This document shows, one piece after another, positions 10,835-40,580 of a stretch of DNA of 64,000 nt. Numbering within the stretch: the first letter of the stretch is position 1; each line of letters opens with the position of its first letter. A model generated the notes under the pieces. That model was given only the letters and a program-made list of their open reading frames with translations. It made no database searches and had not been told where the DNA came from. Source of the DNA: Streptomyces sp. NBS 14/10 (GTDB taxonomy: Bacteria > Actinomycetota > Actinomycetes > Streptomycetales > Streptomycetaceae). Position numbers and translations under genes: made by a program. The stretch spans positions 195,144-259,143 of the forward strand of contig NZ_NCSM01000005.1 of the NCBI RefSeq assembly GCF_002224125.1, in the 5' to 3' direction.

Positions 10835-12238
10835 TCAGTCCCCGAGGTGGTCGATCTCCCGCATCTTGTTCGTCGCGTCCAGGGCGGCGACCTTGTAGGA
10901 CTCGGCGAAGGTCGGATAGTTGAACACCGCGTCGACCAGGTAGTCGACGGTACCGCCGCAGCCCATCACCGCCTGGCCGATGTGGATCAGCTCGGTCGCG
11001 CCGGTGCCGAAGCAGTGCACCCCCAGCAGCCGCCGGTCCTGCGGGGACACCAGCAGCTTCAGCATGCCGTGCGAGTCGCCGACGATCTGACCGCGGGCCA
11101 GCTCGCGATAGCGCGAGACGCCGACCTCGAACGGCACACACGCATCGGTGAGCTGGTCCTCGGTGCGGCCGATGAAGCTGATCTCGGGGATGCTGTAGAT
11201 CCCGATGGGCTGAAGGTCGTGGATCGGGTTCACCGGCTCGTCGCAGGCGTGGTACGCGGCGCTGCGGCCCTGCTCCATCGAGGTGGCGGCGAGCGCGGGG
11301 AAGCCGATCACGTCGCCGACCGCGTAGATGTGCGGCACGGCCGTGCGGTAGTGCTCGTCCACCGTGATCCGGCCCCGCCGGTCGGCCGTGAGGCCCGCCT
11401 TGCCGAGGTCGAGGTCGTCGGTCAGCCCCTGGCGTCCGGCGGAGTACATCACCGCGTCGGCGGGGATCTTTTTCCCGCTCTCCAGCACGGTCAGGGCGCC
11501 GCGGGCGTGGCGCTCGACCGCCGCGACCGTCTCGCCGAAGCGGAAGGTGACGGCCAGGTCCCGCAGCCGGTACTTCAGCGCCTCGACCACTTCGACATCG
11601 CAGAAGTCCAGCATGCCCTCGCGCTGCTCGACCACCGTGACCTTGCTGCCCAGGGCGGCGAACATGGAGGCGTATTCGATGCCGATCACCCCCGCGCCCA
11701 CGATGACCATGGAGCGCGGCACCCGCTCCATGTTCAGGACACTGTCCGAGTCCATGATCGTCCGTTCGTCGAACTCCACGGACGCCGGGCGCGCCGGGCG
11801 GGTACCCGTGGCGATCACGATATGGCCGGCGGTCAGCAGCTGTTCATGGCCGTCGGCGTCGCGTACGGCGACGGTGTGGTCGTCCACGAAGCGTCCGACG
11901 CCGGCGAACACCGCGACCCGGTTGCGGGCCAACTGGCTGCGGATGACGTCCACTTCGCGGCTGACCACATGCTGGGTACGAGCCGTCAGATCGGCGACGG
12001 TGATCTCGTCCTTGAGGCGGTAGCTCTGGCCGTACAGATCGCGCTGCGTCAGTCCGGTGAGGTAGAGCACCGCCTCCCGCAGGGTCTTGGAGGGGACGGT
12101 CCCGGTGTGTATGGAGACGCCGCCGACCATGTCCGGACGGTCGACGACAGCCACGCTGCGGCCGAGCTTCGCCGCGGCGATGGCCGCTTTCTGGCCACCC
12201 GGGCCGGATCCGATCACGAGCATGTCAAAGTCGGGCAC
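10835..12238 (-). CDS. sthA: Si-specific NAD(P)+ transhydrogenase (soluble), 467 aa
   Basis: Soluble flavoprotein moving hydride between NADPH and NAD+, balancing reducing power in the cytosol. The FAD site is [13 protein letters not shown] near the N-terminus, and the NAD(P) site is [16 protein letters not shown]. The second FAD motif is [11 protein letters not shown], with a pyridine-nucleotide dimerisation domain at the C-terminus ([10 protein letters not shown]). The disulfide of lipoamide dehydrogenases is missing: the expected CxxxxC region reads [10 protein letters not shown], the hallmark of SthA. GTG at 12238 (protein [10 protein letters not shown]) matches family N-termini. A TTG at 12280 with a better SD (GGAG) would add 14 residues, so the start is uncertain. 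Confidence 0.9.
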
Positions 12239-12304
12239 CTGAGAAGTCTGGCACCCCATGCCACCCGCCCGAAAGAGCAAGAGCCCTTTCTCCGGAGCCC
12301 ATTT

Positions 12305-12318
12305 GGGGCTGCCGCCCC
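12305..12318. terminator. Short GC hairpin after GH65 gene
   Basis: GGGGC-TGCC-GCCCC lies 8 bases beyond the GH65 stop, within the 87-base gap to the transhydrogenase. The stem is only 5 bp, so this is a weak terminator candidate. Confidence 0.3.
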
Positions 12319-12325
12319 GCGGGCC

Positions 12326-14671
12326 TCAGGCGCGGCGGTCGGGGCGACGGCCGGGGGGCTGGCGCGGCTCGGGGCGGGCGGTGGGCTCGGGGACCTTGCG
12401 GGTCTGCGGCGACTTCTCGGTGACGGTGAGCGGGCGCCCGTAGTGGCGGATCTCCAGCGGGGCGCCGCGCACCATGGTGTAGGTGGCGGTGGCGTCGGTG
12501 ATCTCCACCCGCAGGCACCGGCCCAGCACCTGGACGGTGAAGGCCAGCCGGGCCAGCTTCTCCGGCAGCTTGGGCGAGAAGTTGAGGCTGCCGTCGGTGT
12601 GGCGCATCCCGCCGAATCCGGCCACCAGCGCGATCCAGGTGCCGGCCAGCGAGGCGATATGCAGTCCGTCGCGGGTATTGTGCTCCAGGTCCCTGAGGTC
12701 CATCAGGGCGGCCTCACCCAAGTAGTCGTAGGCCAGGCGCAGATGGCCGACCTCGGCGGCGATGACGGCCTGGGCGCAGGCGGACAGGGAGGAGTCGCGG
12801 ACGGTCATCGCCTCGTAGTACGCGAAGTCGCGTGCCTTCTGCTCGTCGGTGAAGGCATCGCCGCGCAGATACAGCGCCAGCACCAGGTCGGCCTGTTTGA
12901 CGACCTGCTTGCGGTACAGGTCGAAGTAGGGGAAGTGGAGCATCAGCGGGTACTGGTCGGGATGCGTGCCCTCGAAGTCCCACACCTGGTGGTCGGTGAA
13001 GTCGGCCGACTGCTCATGGACGCCCAGGGTCTTGTTGTACGGGATCGTCATGGCCTCGGCGGCGTCCCGCCAGGCCGCGGCCTCCTCGTCGTCCACCCCC
13101 AGCACGGCACCCTTGGCCGGGTGGCGCTCGACGACGTCCGCGGCGGCGCGCAGGTTCGACTGGGCCATGAGGTTGGTGTAGAGGTTGTCGTCGCCGAGCG
13201 CGCTGTACTCGTCGGGGCCGGTCACCCCGTCGATGTGGAAGCGGCCGTGGTGGTCGTGGTGGCCCAGCGAGCGCCACAGCCGGGCCGTCTCCACCAGCAG
13301 TTCCACCGCGGTCTCGCGCTCGAAGTCGTCGTCGCCGGTGGCCGAGACGTAGCGCACCACGGCGTCGGCCACGTCCGCGTTGACATGGAAGGCCGCCGTG
13401 CCGGCCGGCCAGTACCCGGAGCACTCGGACCCCTCGATGGTGCGCCAGGGGAAGGCGGCGCCGTGGTGGCCGAGCTGGCGGGCCCGCTCCCGGGCGGCGG
13501 GCAGTGTGGACTGCCGCCAGCGCAGCGCCTCGGCGACGGATTCGGGGAAGGTGTAGGTGAGCAGCGGCAGCACGAAGGTGTCGGTGTCCCAGAAGGAGTG
13601 TCCGTCGTAGCCGGCCCCGGTCAGGCCCTTGGCGGGGATCGCCCGCTCCTCCGCGCGGGCCCCGGCCTGCAGCACGTGGAAGAGGGCGAAGCGCACGGCC
13701 TGCTGGATCTCGGCGTCGCCCTCGACCTCGACGTCCGCGCGGCTCCAGAAGCCCTCGAGCCAGCCCCGCTGCTGGTCCACCAGGCCCTTCCAGCCGGTGC
13801 TCGCGGCGCCGGCCAGCGCGGCCTCCACCTGGTCCCGGACGGCGGGCAGCGAGCGGGCGCCGGACCAGCCGTAGGCGACCAGCTTCTCCAGCCGCAGCAC
13901 CTCACCCGGCTTGAGCACCGAGGTGACGGTGAGGCGGGCGACGTCCTCGCTGCTCTCACTCGAGGTGCGGGTGGGCGGCGGTCCGCTGATGAAGTGGTCG
14001 GCGGCGGAGGCGACCCGCAGCCGGCTGGCCTCGGTGCAGTGGATCAGGAGCAGCCGCATGTCATGGGCGGCGTGCTCCTCGGGCCGCAGGGGGGACTCCA
14101 GGGCGGCGGCGACCCGGGGGTCGCCGGCGCGGTGCGGCAGTTGTTCGTTGGCGACCAGCTCGGACTGGACGACGATCCGGACCTCCGCGTCCACGGCCTC
14201 CACCTCGTAGGCGACGGCGGCGATGGCCCGCTGAGTGAGGGAGACCATCCGGGTGGAGCGCAGCTTCACGGTGGTGCCGGAGGGGGAGGTCCACTCGCAG
14301 GTGCGGTGCAGCAGCCCACCGCGCAGATCGAGGACGCGCTCGTGCGAGCGCAGCCGCCCGTAGCGCAGATCGAAGGGCTCGTCGTCCACCAGCAGCCTGA
14401 TGATCTTGCCATTGGTGACGTTGATCATGGACTGGCCGGACTCGGGGTAGCCGTAGCCGGCCTCGGCGTACGGCAGGGGGCGCAGCTCGTGCACGCCGTT
14501 GAGATAGGAGCCGGGCCAGCCGTGCGGCTCGCCTTCGTCCAGGTTGCCGCGCCAGCCCACATGGCCGTTGGAGAGCGCGAAGACGGACTCGCTCTGCGGC
14601 AGCACATCGAGGTGGAGCTCGGTTTCGCGGAGCATCCAGGGGTCGACGGCGTATGAGGAATCGGTGATCAC
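12326..14671 (-). CDS. Glycoside hydrolase family 65 protein (disaccharide phosphorylase-like), 781 aa
   Basis: Cytosolic enzyme of the maltose/trehalose/kojibiose phosphorylase family. An N-terminal beta-sandwich opens with ALSNGHVGWRGNLDEG, followed by an (alpha/alpha)6 barrel. The general acid is E488 in GVTGPDEYSALGD, and GHSFWDTDTFVLP and ECSGYWPAGTAAFH are family blocks. A C-terminal barrel cap with the DLRDLEHNTRDGLHIASLAG block completes it. The GTG start overlaps the stop of the upstream beta-phosphoglucomutase-like gene (GTGA), so the two are coupled. Such a pair usually phosphorolyses an alpha-linked disaccharide to beta-glucose-1-phosphate and then makes glucose-6-phosphate. Which disaccharide (trehalose, maltose, kojibiose, nigerose) cannot be read from sequence. 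A hydrolase (acid trehalase) is possible. Confidence 0.9.
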   Translation of the reverse strand: MITDSSYAVDPWMLRETELHLDVLPQSESVFALSNGHVGWRGNLDEGEPHGWPGSYLNGVHELRPLPYAEAGYGYPESGQSMINVTNGKIIRLLVDDEPFDLRYGRLRSHERVLDLRGGLLHRTCEWTSPSGTTVKLRSTRMVSLTQRAIAAVAYEVEAVDAEVRIVVQSELVANEQLPHRAGDPRVAAALESPLRPEEHAAHDMRLLLIHCTEASRLRVASAADHFISGPPPTRTSSESSEDVARLTVTSVLKPGEVLRLEKLVAYGWSGARSLPAVRDQVEAALAGAASTGWKGLVDQQRGWLEGFWSRADVEVEGDAEIQQAVRFALFHVLQAGARAEERAIPAKGLTGAGYDGHSFWDTDTFVLPLLTYTFPESVAEALRWRQSTLPAARERARQLGHHGAAFPWRTIEGSECSGYWPAGTAAFHVNADVADAVVRYVSATGDDDFERETAVELLVETARLWRSLGHHDHHGRFHIDGVTGPDEYSALGDDNLYTNLMAQSNLRAAADVVERHPAKGAVLGVDDEEAAAWRDAAEAMTIPYNKTLGVHEQSADFTDHQVWDFEGTHPDQYPLMLHFPYFDLYRKQVVKQADLVLALYLRGDAFTDEQKARDFAYYEAMTVRDSSLSACAQAVIAAEVGHLRLAYDYLGEAALMDLRDLEHNTRDGLHIASLAGTWIALVAGFGGMRHTDGSLNFSPKLPEKLARLAFTVQVLGRCLRVEITDATATYTMVRGAPLEIRHYGRPLTVTEKSPQTRKVPEPTARPEPRQPPGRRPDRRA

Positions 14672-34814: not shown

Positions 34815-35474
34815 CTATCCGGCGTACGGAGCGAGCCCCGTACGCAGCATGGCGAAGGCACGGTCGGCAGCGGCCACCGCACCCGGGTAGACCTCGTCGG
34901 CGCTCGCACCGCCCTCGATCCGGCGCCAGTTGTCCTGGCCGAGGATCCGCTGGACCGCGATGATCTGGCCCGCGGCGAGGCGTGGCGTCACGTCGTCCGG
35001 CGCCGCGAGGTCATCCGGTTCCGGTCCGCCGATCGCGCTCAGCGCGGTGGTCAGCGCCTCCTCCGATCTGCTGATGTACTCGAACATGCGGGCCACCAAG
35101 CTGGGCGTCCCGTACAGCAGCCGCTGGAAGGCCAGCACGCCCGGCACATCGTTCAGGCCGGTGATCGGATCGCGCCGCTCAAGACCCGCCAGGAAGTGCT
35201 GGTGCAGCGCGGCCAGAGGCGACTGTCCCGCCGCGCGGTCCCGGACCACCCGGGCCGCCTCGTCCTCGTGGTCGGCGAAGCGGTGCAGCACCAGGTCCTC
35301 CTTGGCCGGGAAGTACCGGAACAGGGTGGGCTTGGACACCTCGGCCGCGGCGGCCACATCGGCGACGGAGACCTGGTCGAAGCCCCGTTCCAGAAACAGG
35401 GAGATCGCCGTTTCGGAGATCGTCCGGTACATCCGCTGCTTCTTGCGCTCCCGCAAGCCCGTCTCGCCGCTCAT
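34815..35474 (-). CDS. TetR family transcriptional regulator, 219 aa
   Basis: N-terminal TetR HTH with ETAISLFLERGFDQVSVADV, then VSKPTLFRYFPAKEDLVLHRF, followed by a helical ligand domain of the AcrR-like type (FQRLLYGTPSLVARMFEYI). ATG 35474 is preferred, and a TTG at 35483 would add three residues. The coding frame ends 80 bases before the CobW start on the same strand. Its own gene may be the only target, since no transporter or enzyme is divergent within 500 bases. Confidence 0.9.
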   Translation of the reverse strand: MSGETGLRERKKQRMYRTISETAISLFLERGFDQVSVADVAAAAEVSKPTLFRYFPAKEDLVLHRFADHEDEAARVVRDRAAGQSPLAALHQHFLAGLERRDPITGLNDVPGVLAFQRLLYGTPSLVARMFEYISRSEEALTTALSAIGGPEPDDLAAPDDVTPRLAAGQIIAVQRILGQDNWRRIEGGASADEVYPGAVAAADRAFAMLRTGLAPYAG

Positions 35475-35978
35475 GGGACGCAACCGTAACCCTTGCCCGG
35501 ACCTGACCAGTCTCGGCCACGCGACACCGGCCCGGCCATCGACGGGTTCCTCGTACGCAATCGCGCGCGTACCGCCGCCAGGTCGGCATTAACACCGCAA
35601 GCCGTACCATTTGGCGCCATCGGACTCTAGCGGGATCCTGGCCGACTTGCGCCTGTCAGCCGTCTTCCGCAGCCACCCGCCACATCCTTAAGCTCTCAAC
35701 AAGAGAGACGGCTGATGCACCTGTGCCACACGATGCCCGCGTGACCCGGGCCGGGCCCCGCGCAAACCGCTCAGCGCCGGAGCGCCGACTCTTCGACACA
35801 CGCGGCACATCGCGCTTCTCCCCCACACCCGCCAGTCCTGACACGCCCCGGCATGACCAGCCGAACGCTGACCGAAATACCGAACGCCAGCCTCGGCGCG
35901 TCCCTCGGCGCGCCACAGCCCGAACTCGACCGCGCACACCTACGGTTGGGCCCCATCGCCGCGGAAGGAATCGCCACG
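35475..35978. other. 504-bp non-coding stretch upstream of the adenylation-domain operon
   Basis: No convincing gene on either strand. The main structure is a nested inverted repeat: TCAGCCGTC (35656-35664) pairs with GACGGCTGA (35707-35715), enclosing CTCTC-AACAA-GAGAG (35693-35707). This could be a leader structure or operator for the operon starting at 35979. A frame open upstream of 35979 back to 35853 has no SD. Confidence 0.5.
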
Positions 35979-37586
35979 ATGCACCCCGAAACAACACACC
36001 AGGAACCGAGCGAACGGGCCACGGCACCGGCCTGGTCCGCACATCCACTGCACGAGTTGTCCGGGGAGGACCGCCACCTCTTCCAACGGTTCGGCCGAGG
36101 GCCGGTGGCGGCCGTGTCCTGGGCCGGTGTCCACCACGCCTTCGAGCGGCACGCCGCCACCGATCCGCTCGCCGTCGCGGCCGAACACCTCGGCGCCACC
36201 ATCAGCTACGGAGAGCTGGACCGGCAGGCGAACCGGCTGGCCGCGCATCTGGCCCGGCTCGGTGTGCGCCCCGGCGACAACGTGGCGTTATGCGTACGGC
36301 GTTCCATACCCATGCTGGTCGGCCTGCTGGCCACCCTCAAAGCCGGGGCAGCGTATGTGCCGCAGGACGCCGGACTGACCCCCCGCGCCCAGCTCGACCA
36401 CGTCATCCGCACCGCCCGGACCCGCGTGATCCTCGCGACCTCCGGCTACGCGGACCGGATTCCGGTGCCCGACGGCCACGTCCTCATCGCCATCGACACC
36501 ATGATGGAGGGCAGCGGAGACACCGCGGCGTTCCGGCCCGCCCGGCCCGTCCGGGGCGACGACGGCTGCTATGTGCTCTTCACCTCCGGCACCACGGGGC
36601 GCCCCAACGGGGTCACCGTCACCCACCGGAACGTCTGCAACATCCTGCTGACCGAACCCGGCGACCTCGGCATGCGTCCCGGGACGCGGGTGAGCCAGAT
36701 CCTCAATGTGGCGTTCGACATGGCCGCGTGGGAGATCCTGGGCTGCCTGAGCCACGGCGCCACCCTGGTCATCCGCGGCAAGGACATCGCCGAGACCGTA
36801 CGGCGGGTGGACGTGGTCATCGCGACCCCGACCGTGCTCAGCCGGCTCGACCCCGACCAGTGCCGAGGCGTGAAGGTGGCGGCCGTGGCCGGGGAGCCCT
36901 GCCCGCGCCGGCTCGCCGACCGGTGGGCCCGCTTCTGCACCTTCTACAACGCGTGCGGGCCGACCGAGACCACCATCGTGAACACCATGCAGCGCCACGA
37001 CCCCGCCGCACTGCGCCTGACCATCGGCCGCCCCACCCCCAACAACACGGTGTACGTCCTGGACGCGGACCGAAGGCCCTGCGCCATCGGCGAGACGGGT
37101 GAGATGTGGGCCGGAGGTGACGGGGTGTCGGCCGGCTATCTGCACAACCCCGCGCTGAACGCCGAGCGCTATGTGCCCGACCCCTTCCTGGGCGGGGGCC
37201 GGATGATGTTCCGCACCCGCGACCTGGGCCGCTGGACACCCGACGGGGAGCTGGAACACCTGGGCCGGACCGACGACCAGGTGAAGGTGCGGGGGTTCCG
37301 CGTGGAGCTGGACTCGGTGTCGGCGGTGCTGGAGTCACTGCCCGGCTGCGCCCGCGCGGTGACACTCAAGCCGGACGACACCGGCCTGGTGTCCTTCGTC
37401 TCGCCCGCCCATCTCGACCCCGAGGCGGCGCGGCGGGCCGTGGCCGCCGCGCTCCCCTACTACTGCGTGCCGCGGGCGGTGCACCCGATGGCGGCGCTGC
37501 CGCTCACCAGCCGCGGAAAGGTCGACAAGGCGGCCCTGCTGCAGCTGGCCGCCGAGCGCCGGACGAGTGGCGAGGTGGCGTCATGA
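35979..37586 (+). CDS. Stand-alone NRPS-type adenylation domain protein, 535 aa
   Basis: AMP-forming enzyme that activates a carboxylic, probably amino, acid. ATG 35979 has SD GGAAGGA. Core motifs: A3 LFTSGTTGRPNG (T202 on), A4 FDMAAWE with D247 and W251, A5 NACGPTE with E330, A7 RTRDLGRW, A8 GRTDDQVKVRGFRVEL, and A10 SRGKVDK near the C-terminus. D247 occupies the Stachelhaus 235 position that binds the alpha-amino group, which argues for an amino acid substrate. There is no carrier-protein domain after A10 and no condensation or reductase domain. The stop overlaps the next gene (ATGA), a membrane flavocytochrome-like protein, so the activated product may be handed to or tied with a redox step. 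Pathway not recognised. Confidence 0.85.
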   Translation: MHPETTHQEPSERATAPAWSAHPLHELSGEDRHLFQRFGRGPVAAVSWAGVHHAFERHAATDPLAVAAEHLGATISYGELDRQANRLAAHLARLGVRPGDNVALCVRRSIPMLVGLLATLKAGAAYVPQDAGLTPRAQLDHVIRTARTRVILATSGYADRIPVPDGHVLIAIDTMMEGSGDTAAFRPARPVRGDDGCYVLFTSGTTGRPNGVTVTHRNVCNILLTEPGDLGMRPGTRVSQILNVAFDMAAWEILGCLSHGATLVIRGKDIAETVRRVDVVIATPTVLSRLDPDQCRGVKVAAVAGEPCPRRLADRWARFCTFYNACGPTETTIVNTMQRHDPAALRLTIGRPTPNNTVYVLDADRRPCAIGETGEMWAGGDGVSAGYLHNPALNAERYVPDPFLGGGRMMFRTRDLGRWTPDGELEHLGRTDDQVKVRGFRVELDSVSAVLESLPGCARAVTLKPDDTGLVSFVSPAHLDPEAARRAVAAALPYYCVPRAVHPMAALPLTSRGKVDKAALLQLAAERRTSGEVAS

Positions 37587-38902
37587 CCCCCGCCCGCACC
37601 GTGGCCCCGGCGCCCCGGGCGAAAGTGGCGCTGCCGCCACCGACATCGCTGCCACGGCGGATCCTCAAGCATCCGCGCCTGATGCACTACAACCGGCTGA
37701 TCGCGCTCGTATGGGCGGTCAATCTGGTCTTTCTCGCCACCCGCGCTGACGGGGGGCTCGGGCCGCGGACCCTCTCCCACGCCGCACTCGCGAACTTCCT
37801 GCTGGCGATCGTCGTCCGCCAGCAGTACGTCATCAATCTGCTCTTCCGGCTCGCCACCGCGGCGCCCACCAACTGGCCGCTGCGGATCCGCTGGACACTG
37901 GGAAAGGTCTACCACTTCGGTGGACTGCACGTCGGCGGCGCCACCGCGGGCGCGCTGTGGTTTCTGGCCCTGGTCGGCTCGCTCACCCGGCACGGCGCTC
38001 CGGCCGCCACGCTCGCCGTCTCGTATGCGCTGCTGGGGCTGCTGGTGGCCATCGTGGCCACCGCGCTGCCGCCCTTCCGGGCGCGGTTCCACGACCACTT
38101 CGAGAAGGCACACCGCTTCGGCGGCTGGGCGGCGCTCGCGCTGCTGTGGGCGCAGACCGTGCTGACCACGCTCGACGAGCGGGGTGGCGCCTCCGCCGCG
38201 GAGGCCCTGCTGACGGCTCCCGAACTGTGGACCGTGGCCGTGCTGACCTTCAGCGTCGCCCTGCCCTGGCTGCAGCTGCGCCGGGTGCCGGTGGCCATCG
38301 AGCGCCCCTCCTCGCATGTGGCGCTCGTCCGCTTCGACCACGGCGTGACGCCGTTCGCCGGATCGTCCACGGCCATCAGCCGCAACCCGCTGCTGGAGTG
38401 GCACTCATTCGCCAATGTGCCCGCCCCCGGCGAGGCGGGGTTCCGCCTCACCGTCTCCCGCGCCGGGGACTGGACCGGGAAGTTCATCGACGACGCGCCC
38501 TCCCACGTCTGGGTCAAGGGCATCACCACGGCGGGCGTGGCCAATATCGAGACCCTGTTCACCAAGGTGGTCTATGTGGCCACCGGAAGCGGTATCGGCC
38601 CCTGTCTGCCCCATCTGCTGGCCCGCGCGGTTCCGGCCCGTCTGGTCTGGGCGACCCGCGATCCGCGCAGGACCTACGGCGACCGGCTGGTCGACGAGAT
38701 CCTCGCCGTCCAGCCCGACGCGCTCATCTGGGACACCTCCGAACACGGCAAGCCCGACATGGTCGAGCTGGCCTATGCCGCGTACGCCGACTTCGGGGCT
38801 GAAGCCGTGATCTGCATCTCCAACAAGAAGCTGACCTGGCAGGTTGTCCAGGGCATGGAGCGCCGCGGGATCCCCGCGTACGGCGCCATCTGGGACTCAT
38901 AG
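37583..38902 (+). CDS. Six-TM membrane flavoprotein resembling NADPH oxidase/ferric reductase, 439 aa
   Basis: Predicted membrane oxidoreductase. Six hydrophobic segments lie at about 36-52, 68-86, 112-133, 143-162, 178-194 and 214-232. His residues at the heads of TM3 (H111, H116) and TM5 (H172, H177) could hold a heme, but the 13-14 spacing of typical two-heme NOX/FRE proteins is absent. The soluble half has EWHSFANVP (271-279, compare the HPFT FAD site), GDWT at 295-298, a mark of the NOX/FRE group, and a nucleotide loop VATGSGIGP at 332-340. The end is divergent (ICISNKK where NOX has CGP). ATG overlaps the adenylation gene stop. An enoyl-CoA hydratase follows after 9 bases. Function unassigned: electron transfer across the membrane or desaturation are possibilities. 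Confidence 0.7.
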   Translation: MTPARTVAPAPRAKVALPPPTSLPRRILKHPRLMHYNRLIALVWAVNLVFLATRADGGLGPRTLSHAALANFLLAIVVRQQYVINLLFRLATAAPTNWPLRIRWTLGKVYHFGGLHVGGATAGALWFLALVGSLTRHGAPAATLAVSYALLGLLVAIVATALPPFRARFHDHFEKAHRFGGWAALALLWAQTVLTTLDERGGASAAEALLTAPELWTVAVLTFSVALPWLQLRRVPVAIERPSSHVALVRFDHGVTPFAGSSTAISRNPLLEWHSFANVPAPGEAGFRLTVSRAGDWTGKFIDDAPSHVWVKGITTAGVANIETLFTKVVYVATGSGIGPCLPHLLARAVPARLVWATRDPRRTYGDRLVDEILAVQPDALIWDTSEHGKPDMVELAYAAYADFGAEAVICISNKKLTWQVVQGMERRGIPAYGAIWDS

Positions 38903-38911
38903 GGAGACACC

Positions 38912-39679
38912 ATGGACGTCATCAAGATCGAACAACATGGGCGTGTGGTCACCGCGCGGCTGCACCGCCCCACCGTGCTCAACGCGCTGAACAGCGAGGT
39001 GATGACCGAGCTGGTCGCGGCCCTGTCACCGCTGGACCTCGACCCGGACGTCGGCTGCTTTGTGATCACCGGGTCCGAGCGGGTCTTCGCCGCGGGCGCC
39101 GACATCAAGGAGATGGCGGCCAAGTCCTTCGCCGAGATATCCGAGGAGGACTTCTTCGCGGGCTGGGAGGGGTTCGCCGCGCTGCGCACCCCGAAGATCG
39201 CCGCCGTCCGCGGCTATGCGCTCGGCGGCGGCTGCGAACTGGCCATGATGTGCGATCTGATCCTCGCGGGCGAGTCCGCGGTGTTCGGCCAGCCGGAGAT
39301 CAAGCTGGGCGTGATCCCGGGCATCGGCGGCACCCAGCGGCTGACCAGGCTGGTGGGCAAGGCCAAGGCGATGGATCTGATCCTCACCGGCCGGACCATG
39401 GCCGCCGAGGAGGCCGAGCGCTGTGGTCTGGTCTCCCGCGTCGTGCCGGACGACCAGCTCATGGCGGAGGCGGCGGAGGCGGCCGCCGCCATCGCGTCGT
39501 ACGGCAGGACCGCGGTCAGGGCCGCCCGGGAGGCGGTGGAGCGGGCCCTGGAGGTGGGGTTGCGCGAGGGGCTGCTGTTCGAGCGGCGGACCTTCCACGC
39601 CCTGTTCGCCACCGAGGACCAGTCCGAGGGCATGCGGGCGTTCCTCGACAAGCGCGCCCCGCGCTTCACCGGCCACTGA
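38912..39679 (+). CDS. Enoyl-CoA hydratase/isomerase (crotonase family), 255 aa
   Basis: Crotonase-fold enzyme. The oxyanion-hole block AAGADIKEM and the two catalytic glutamates of true hydratases are present: E109 in [11 protein letters not shown] and E129 in [20 protein letters not shown]. Full-length for the family. ATG 38912 with SD GGGAGA, 9 bases after the preceding stop, so it is the third gene of the operon. Its presence implies a CoA-bound or acyl intermediate, which sits oddly beside an amino-acid-type adenylation domain lacking a carrier protein. A 12-bp tandem duplication spans the stop codon. Confidence 0.92.
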
Positions 39680-39764: not shown

Positions 39765-40580
39765 ATGACCACGCGCCCGTCCGCCGTGCCGCTCCACTGC
39801 GACCAGGGCGGTACGGGCGCTCCCCCGCTGCTGCTGGTGCACGGCTGGGGCGGCGACGCCGGGGAGTGGGCTCCGCACCTGGCCGCGTGGTCGCGCCGGC
39901 ACCGGGTGCTCGCCCCGGACCTGCGCGGCCACGGCCGCTCCCCCGCGCCCGCCGACGGGGACTACGGGCCGCGTGACTTCGCCGCAGACCTCGCGGCCCT
40001 GCTGCACCGCCTGGACACCGGTCCCGTCGTCGCCGTCGGCCACTCGATGGGCGGGCAGGCCGTCACCGCACTGGCCGTCGAGCACCCCGCCCTGGTACGG
40101 GCCGTGGTGGTACTGGACCCGGCGTACGGCGCCGACGAGGCGGAGCTGGCCCGGCTGCCCACCGAGCAGGAGGCGCTGCGCGCCGAGGGAGCCGGGTGGG
40201 CGGTGCGGTTCGTCCGTGGGGCCTTCGGACCGCACACCCCGCCCGGCGTGCGGGCGCGCCATGAGCGGCTGATGGCGGCGATGGACCCGGACGTGCTCGC
40301 CCGGTGCCGCGACGGAATGTATCTGGCGCCGGACGCCTTCGGGGCGCGGGCGGCGGCGCGGGCGTATCTGGCGCGCCGCCGCTGCCCGGTGCTGGGCGTG
40401 TACTCGAACGAGGCGCCGGCCGACTGGGAGCGCGCCTCGCTCCCCCACCCGTACTCCCGCGTCGAGGCGTGGCCGGGGTGCGGCCACTATCTGCACGAGG
40501 ACCGGCGGGAGGCGTTGGTCGAGCTGGTCGAGGAGTGGACCGCCGGGCTCGGCGAGCCCGGGGCCACCACCTCCCTGTGA
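39765..40580 (+). CDS. Alpha/beta hydrolase, 271 aa
   Basis: Cytosolic serine hydrolase. ATG 39765 with SD GGGAGG. Oxyanion region LLLVHGWGGD at 22-31, nucleophile S94 in VGHSMGGQA, likely acid in the SNEAP region, and catalytic His in GCGHYLHEDR near the C-terminus. Small alpha-helical cap. It is separated from the hydratase gene by 85 bases with a palindromic operator-like site, so it is probably a separate transcription unit. Substrate unknown. Convergent with the next reductase gene. Confidence 0.88.
   Translation: MTTRPSAVPLHCDQGGTGAPPLLLVHGWGGDAGEWAPHLAAWSRRHRVLAPDLRGHGRSPAPADGDYGPRDFAADLAALLHRLDTGPVVAVGHSMGGQAVTALAVEHPALVRAVVVLDPAYGADEAELARLPTEQEALRAEGAGWAVRFVRGAFGPHTPPGVRARHERLMAAMDPDVLARCRDGMYLAPDAFGARAAARAYLARRRCPVLGVYSNEAPADWERASLPHPYSRVEAWPGCGHYLHEDRREALVELVEEWTAGLGEPGATTSL

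Follow-up and report, generated by a model that had tools for sequence, protein, structure and literature searches.

We found that a window of 64,000 nucleotides from Streptomyces sp. NBS 14/10 (contig NZ_NCSM01000005.1, positions 195,144 to 259,143, forward strand; "the window" throughout) contains an operon of three genes that recur together across bacterial genomes. They encode a free-standing adenylation protein of the nonribosomal peptide synthetase (NRPS) type, a membrane flavoprotein with the NOX/ferric-reductase fold and an enoyl-CoA hydratase, for which we use the working names A, FeR and ECH. The evidence that A, FeR and ECH are one system is strong, and from it we infer a chemistry. 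We lean slightly towards the reading that the operon is a split bacterial counterpart of the fungal proteins TmpB and TmpL (NPS12) and of the ECH gene next to them, with a reductive chemistry. What is new here is the bacterial trio with A and FeR as separate genes, the fungal combination being already in print; a literature search, thin on subscription journals, recognised no description of the bacterial operon.

Co-occurrence of A, FeR and ECH

Bacterial and archaeal genomes were scanned with an alignment of three FeR proteins, and we analysed the best 80 of the 150 relatives recovered. These loci came mostly from Streptomyces, and also from Micromonospora, Microbispora, Streptosporangium, Catelliglobosispora, Actinomadura, Amycolatopsis, Catenulispora and one metagenome-assembled genome of Saprospiraceae (L068; L-numbers denote compared loci outside the window, and identities are given relative to the window proteins). 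A was located directly upstream of FeR on the same strand in 78 of the 80 loci, both misses (L072 and L079) being contig ends, while ECH was found downstream in 79 loci (at least 68% identical in 78 and 38% in L068; absent from L046). The ordered A-FeR-ECH arrangement with an ECH of at least 68% identity was present in 76 loci, and the four exceptions were the two contig ends, L046 without ECH and L068 with its 38% ECH. Locus L085, with truncated A and ECH matches, was counted as present.

FeR was detected in 3 out of 396 genomes of the window's phylum and in 36 out of 295 genomes of its genus (own genome included in both counts; one of the 36 was a partial match with an in-frame stop). The family of genome G204 gave strong matches in 25 of 200 genomes, G204 included, and 66 of the 200 reached E 0.001, the weaker ones being short dehydrogenase-domain matches. 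Among 395 genomes from the phylum of L068, E 0.001 was reached in 4, and 3 of these matches were strong, with the L068 genome included. We hand-chose 20 further regions from the phylum, genus and family scans, and 16 of those carried ordered A-FeR-ECH (L126 and L130 repeat L030 and L036, and the FeR of L127 is frameshifted). The trio was also present in the low-GC loci L115 (GC 0.31) and L116 (GC 0.29), which belong to the phylum of L068 (A 47-48%, FeR 54% and ECH 58% identical), and the unit, ECH included, therefore crosses phyla. This co-occurrence lies far beyond chance and is strong evidence, at the level of sequence, for a conserved unit. The original prediction had staked its idea of "one system" on the three families co-occurring elsewhere, and the bacterial loci bore it out strongly, with further support from the FeR structure model described below.

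About half of the 80 loci share identical flanking genes, which correspond to one chromosomal site common in Streptomyces. Outside Streptomyces, where 23 distinct loci were compared, the next commonest true neighbour family occurred in 6 loci; a neighbour cluster of 10 loci resembles antisense open reading frames (ORFs), and ECH was undercounted by the gene caller (12 out of 23), which tblastn corrects. In 3 out of 94 loci A and FeR formed a single open frame, with 1,027 (L068), 1,056 (L131) and 1,000 (L133) codons from stop to stop. L068 is distant from L131 and L133 in the tree and each of the three has relatives with separate A and FeR; there was probably more than one fusion or fission event, judging from a tree in which several inner nodes are weak (0.50-0.70). 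The pairwise distances of A, FeR and ECH over 87 loci were highly correlated (Mantel r 0.93-0.95; none of 999 permutations reached such values), which indicates joint inheritance, with shared host phylogeny contributing.

We considered whether the three genes are chance neighbours, a reductase that happens to lie next to a housekeeping ECH and the relic of an NRPS. Enoyl-CoA hydratases are indeed common, and the window genome has 25 ECH-like places including the operon's own, but the nearest of the 24 others is 47% identical to the operon ECH. The chance reading, to which we assign a negligible probability, is refuted by the co-occurrence of the trio across the 80 loci and the further regions, by its presence in low-GC genomes of another phylum and by the existence of fused A-FeR proteins.

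The adenylation protein

A matched TIGR01733 (amino-acid adenylation; 357 bits, cut-off 317) and PF00501 above cut-off, and its C-terminal PF13193 reached only 18.7 bits, below the cut-off of 24.5. Pfam and NCBIfam scans found no carrier or condensation domain in A, FeR or ECH, so that the window trio does not have the domain set of an NRPS, and no recurrent carrier gene was noticed among the commonest neighbour clusters of the compared loci. The amino-group aspartate, D247, was kept in 80 out of 81 aligned A proteins, the remaining one having a gap, which agrees with the original prediction of an adenylation domain that keeps this residue and has no carrier protein. The A10 lysine corresponds to K514 in the window A.

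The ten pocket positions were assigned by core motifs and read DMWTAAAIVK in the window A. Across 95 aligned A proteins of both phyla (two rows incomplete there) the pattern was DMW[TS]AA[CSAG]IVK. Just two positions vary, one between T and S and the other, equivalent to position 322 of PheA, among the small residues C, S, A and G; cysteine is the commonest at the latter (46 out of 81 A proteins), where the window has alanine. Since A proteins with 47-94% identity to the window A share this near-constant pocket, one substrate class is indicated, which would be an alpha-amino acid with an apolar side chain. For reference, PheA has the ten-letter code DAWTIAAICK. The exact substrate of A cannot be deduced from the pocket.

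The membrane flavoprotein

No Pfam or NCBIfam model recognised FeR above cut-off, and its sequence had no match among solved structures at E up to 10. The motifs GDWT and GSGIGP, on which the original prediction had based a flavoprotein of this group, were present in all 81 aligned FeR proteins. The predicted model of FeR comprises six transmembrane (TM) helices followed by FAD and NAD(P)H domains, as the NOX fold does, and matched that fold over the full length in structure comparison; the flavin-binding fold that the original prediction had asked of such a model is thus predicted together with the six helices. The best full-length fold matches were SpNOX and the human phagocyte NADPH oxidase (which we take to be NOX2), at 11-14% identity. 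Homology is also supported by an hhalign comparison of FeR with nine actinobacterial PF01794 proteins (98.1%, 386 columns), a single-pair run whose E-value is not valid for a database. The nine proteins were picked from 30 for clear histidine pairs and are no fair sample of heme content. FeR has one match in its own 12.1-Mb genome.

The inner-heme positions H116 and H177, which correspond to the inner pair H69/H129 of SpNOX, were histidine in 81 out of 81 FeR proteins, while two of the nine PF01794 proteins have Gln in the H177 column. The outer TM3 ligand position was histidine in one out of 81 (L010) and in none of 14 diverse FeR proteins (one gap); unlike SpNOX and the human phagocyte NADPH oxidase, FeR has lost the TM3 member of the outer pair. 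The inner TM3 ligand differs with the alignment setting (Y110 or H116), and both settings leave the outer TM3 position without histidine: all 81 proteins have T, A or S at position 124, and one of the 81 has histidine at position 130. FeR does not have the four histidines of TM3 and TM5 that hold two hemes in NOX proteins, and the earlier claim of too few histidines for two hemes held. As the outer pair is incomplete, electrons should stay on the cytoplasmic side.

These residues bear on the possibility that FeR works as a genuine NADPH oxidase, producing or controlling reactive oxygen species (ROS), with A as a substrate-sensing regulatory domain. The fold matches to SpNOX and the human enzyme agree with this, as does the disturbance of ROS levels when tmpL is deleted in fungi (PMC2766074, in part). 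That same deletion raises superoxide, however, and with the outer TM3 histidine in 1 out of 81 proteins there is no evident electron path across the membrane; ECH also stays unexplained. We regard the NADPH oxidase as improbable.

The enoyl-CoA hydratase

ECH belongs to the crotonase fold (PF00378), and both catalytic glutamates, E109 and E129, were kept in 96 out of 96 aligned ECH proteins, as the original prediction had stated for the window. Its best NCBIfam model scored 388 bits against a cut-off of 396. Judged by its distance from the paralogues in the window genome, the operon ECH is a distinct type, bound to the operon, which sets it apart from other crotonase-fold enoyl-CoA hydratases. 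Crotonases with the catalytic glutamate pair act on CoA thioesters, and with both residues kept, a CoA thioester is the likely substrate of ECH. In L046, the sole locus without ECH, a gene that by eye resembles flavin-dependent oxidoreductases follows FeR (11374-12864).

Relationship to fungal TmpB and TmpL

The papers on the fungal proteins are covered here in part, and what we take from them is limited to those parts. TmpL combines an AMP-binding domain with six TM helices and an FAD/NAD(P) domain, and its recombinant C-terminal part bound flavin (PMC2766074). TmpB of A. nidulans (AN9129, 989 aa) has the same build, is found at the plasma membrane and affects sporulation, and an ECH gene lies beside tmpB in Aspergilli (PMC4804170). 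TmpA, TmpB and TmpL all affect sporulation, and TmpL also affects redox balance and virulence. The statement of the original prediction that the three activities belong to no recognised pathway therefore stands in part, for the same set of activities has been published from fungi, where TmpB has an ECH gene beside it (PMC4804170).

The window operon resembles TmpB, TmpL and ChNPS12 in having an NRPS-type adenylation domain without thiolation (T) or condensation (C) domains, followed by a six-helix TM region and by FAD/NAD(P) domains that carry GSGIGP, and it resembles TmpB of Aspergilli in its ECH neighbour, found downstream in 79 out of 80 loci. Asp, Trp, Gly, Ile and Lys of the TmpB pocket are kept in the bacterial A, and TmpB has Cys at the variable pocket position, as do 46 of 81 bacterial A proteins, where the window has Ala (PMC4804170, in part). 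The fused bacterial A-FeR proteins (about 1,000 residues, three loci) have the architecture of fungal TmpL, TmpB and NPS12, whereas the window has two genes with a 4-base overlap instead of one polypeptide.

TmpA of Aspergillus nidulans is also a separate membrane flavoprotein that works in one pathway with an adenylate-forming enzyme from another gene, AfeA (PMC4804170, in part); AfeA is 4-coumarate-CoA-ligase-like, unlike the NRPS-like A. Free-standing A domains of bacteria nest inside the fungal NPS12 clade in the tree of Bushley and Turgeon 2010, and FeR or ECH partners are not mentioned in the part of that paper covered here (PMC2823734). Those domains are probably A proteins of the window type or relatives. 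Verticillium ANN3 was rejected as a counterpart, since its ACP domain makes it another architecture.

Proposed function

Comparison across the loci supports that A activates an alpha-amino acid, that A and FeR form a pair, and that ECH acts in the same pathway in nearly all loci. A would form an aminoacyl adenylate, or perhaps a CoA thioester, without a carrier protein and would hand the activated compound to FeR adjoining in the membrane. Hydride from NAD(P)H would pass to FAD and then to at most one inner heme, and FeR would reduce the activated compound, or a derivative of it, at the cytoplasmic face, and not oxygen or iron outside. ECH would add or remove water at the CoA-thioester stage, the relative order of the FeR and ECH steps being left free. 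The product would probably be small and diffusible, and perhaps a signal, as was proposed for TmpA and TmpB in Aspergillus.

We favour reduction over oxidation because of the NAD(P)H-FAD fold of FeR and its incomplete outer heme pair. NAD(P)H:FAD enzymes of the FNR/NOX type normally reduce their acceptor, and electrons seem to go no further than the inner heme, which makes the "oxidised" product of the original prediction doubtful. Its suggestion of export or membrane anchoring had as sole basis that FeR is a membrane protein, and we do not retain it. On a wider view, A may feed a one-heme NOX-fold reductase and a dedicated hydratase in an ancient carrier-free pathway, shared by at least two bacterial phyla and fungi, that yields an amino-acid-derived signal or redox metabolite; we put this forward tentatively, with less than even confidence.

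Should FeR indeed act as a reductase on an activated amino acid, a biosynthetic role would be added to the NOX fold. A NOX-fold protein that reduces an aminoacyl adenylate or thioester would represent a new kind of enzyme chemistry. With the same parts encoded as separate genes in culturable actinobacteria, each step becomes testable on its own, and a fungal-type enzyme system tied to spore formation becomes open to study in bacteria.

Points against the reductive counterpart and alternative routes

Several observations weigh against reading the operon as a reductive counterpart of TmpB and TmpL. The kinship with TmpB appears from architecture, published motifs and published residue positions, and the window does not encode A and FeR as the one polypeptide that TmpB and TmpL are. 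The complete histidine pair of FeR concerns the inner heme only, heme binding itself being predicted, and the outer TM5 position is still histidine in 60 out of 81 FeR proteins. ECH may be dispensable, since L046 lacks it and L068 has a poorly related one. FeR was found without A or ECH in 4 of the 20 further regions (L117-L120) and in 4 of 5 plasmid records, the fifth being outside the comparison; none of these eight stretches gave an appreciable match to A or ECH. In the FeR tree, an orphan FeR from a Pantoea piersonii plasmid (L086 9070-10245, 48% identical) groups (0.997) with the A-linked L068, L115 and L116, that is, inside an A-linked clade. FeR is not tied to this pathway everywhere and can serve without A and ECH. 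Finally, the authors of the TmpB study suggest that the TmpA domain oxidises the substrate or the activated substrate (PMC4804170, in part).

That suggestion fits an oxidative, beta-oxidation-like route in which A makes an aminoacyl-CoA, FeR serves the desaturation between C-alpha and C-beta, and ECH hydrates the product to a beta-hydroxy or dehydro amino acid. The activities would then run ligase, dehydrogenation, hydratase, and ECH keeps both of its catalytic glutamates. The fold of FeR, however, is that of NAD(P)H-dependent electron donors and not of acyl-CoA dehydrogenases, and the desaturation needs an oxygen- or iron-dependent partner while no other gene recurs in the unit; we consider such a route unlikely.

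The surroundings of the orphan FeR genes show no common theme among a pyridoxal-phosphate (PLP)-dependent enzyme, a Rieske protein and an HlyD-like protein. In L117 (7270-9996) the gene immediately upstream of FeR encodes a PLP-dependent enzyme (PF00155), which by eye resembles an alpha-oxoamine synthase, another enzyme of amino-acid chemistry. In L119 (6852-8804) a gene for a small Rieske [2Fe-2S] protein (PF00355) comes after FeR, and the related locus L120 shares that FeR and its surroundings, with the Rieske gene not called separately. In the cyanobacterial plasmids L087, L088 and L089 an FeR relative (32-33%) is followed by an HlyD-like membrane-fusion protein. Siderophore genes lie 5-8 kb from the orphan Pantoea FeR.

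FeR might also be a ferric or siderophore reductase, with A as part of a siderophore route. The siderophore genes near the Pantoea FeR point that way, as do matches of a cyanobacterial relative to Ferric_reduct, NAD_binding_6 and FAD_binding_8, all sub-threshold. Against this, most loci away from the shared Streptomyces site have no other gene family in common beside the operon, which leaves out carrier, condensation, N-hydroxylase and uptake genes alike, and the outer heme pair is incomplete, which leaves a siderophore function very improbable.

Operon layout and neighbouring genes

The features of the operon and its surroundings are given in Table 1. The three-gene operon with a 4-base overlap and 9-base spacing was confirmed in the sequence, ECH starting 9 bases past the stop of FeR, and translational coupling of A and FeR through the ATGA overlap is probable. 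The mechanical ORF list starts A earlier, at ATG 35853; ATG 35979 is the better start because GGAAGGA stands nine bases ahead of it. The alpha/beta hydrolase after ECH was ruled out as a fourth operon gene, as it was found in 1 out of 100 loci (L006). Nothing among the commonest neighbour clusters pointed to the TetR-type gene, at which no search was aimed.

Table 1. Features of the A-FeR-ECH operon in the window, its flanking genes, and regulators beside the operon in compared loci.
Feature	Position	Strand	Basis or detail
A: free-standing NRPS-type adenylation protein, 535 aa	35979..37586	+	TIGR01733 357 bits; pocket DMWTAAAIVK
ATGA overlap of A stop and FeR start	37583..37586	+	sequence; 4-base overlap in 81/94 loci tested
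FeR: NOX/ferric-reductase-fold membrane flavoprotein, 439 aa; predicted six TM helices, FAD and NAD(P)H domains	37583..38902	+	model
ECH: crotonase-family enoyl-CoA hydratase, 255 aa, E109 and E129	38912..39679	+	PF00378 256 bits
TetR-type regulator, divergent from A	34815-35483	-	
alpha/beta hydrolase, after ECH	39765-40580	+	
OmpR-type regulator, downstream of operon	L005 11163-13446; L128		
OmpR-type regulator, upstream, Micromonospora-like loci	among L018, L030, L062, L127, L129, L134	same strand	
OmpR-type regulator, low-GC loci	L115 9670-11881; L116 10205-12404	divergent	

TTA codons are rare in high-GC Streptomyces genes and often mark bldA dependence. The window A has a single TTA codon (position 36288, codon 104), common to L006. 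At least one TTA codon was present in 15 out of 78 A, 6 out of 80 FeR and 5 out of 79 ECH segments, counts that include the AT-rich L068 and come without a background rate, and nothing was concluded from them about developmental control.

In several loci the operon adjoins an OmpR-type regulator, accompanied by a histidine kinase in all but L128, which gave no kinase match. A regulator or kinase was found beside it in 11 out of 100 loci, including one weak kinase match alone (L042) and one repeat (L126), and these flanks hint that an outside signal controls the operon in some lineages.

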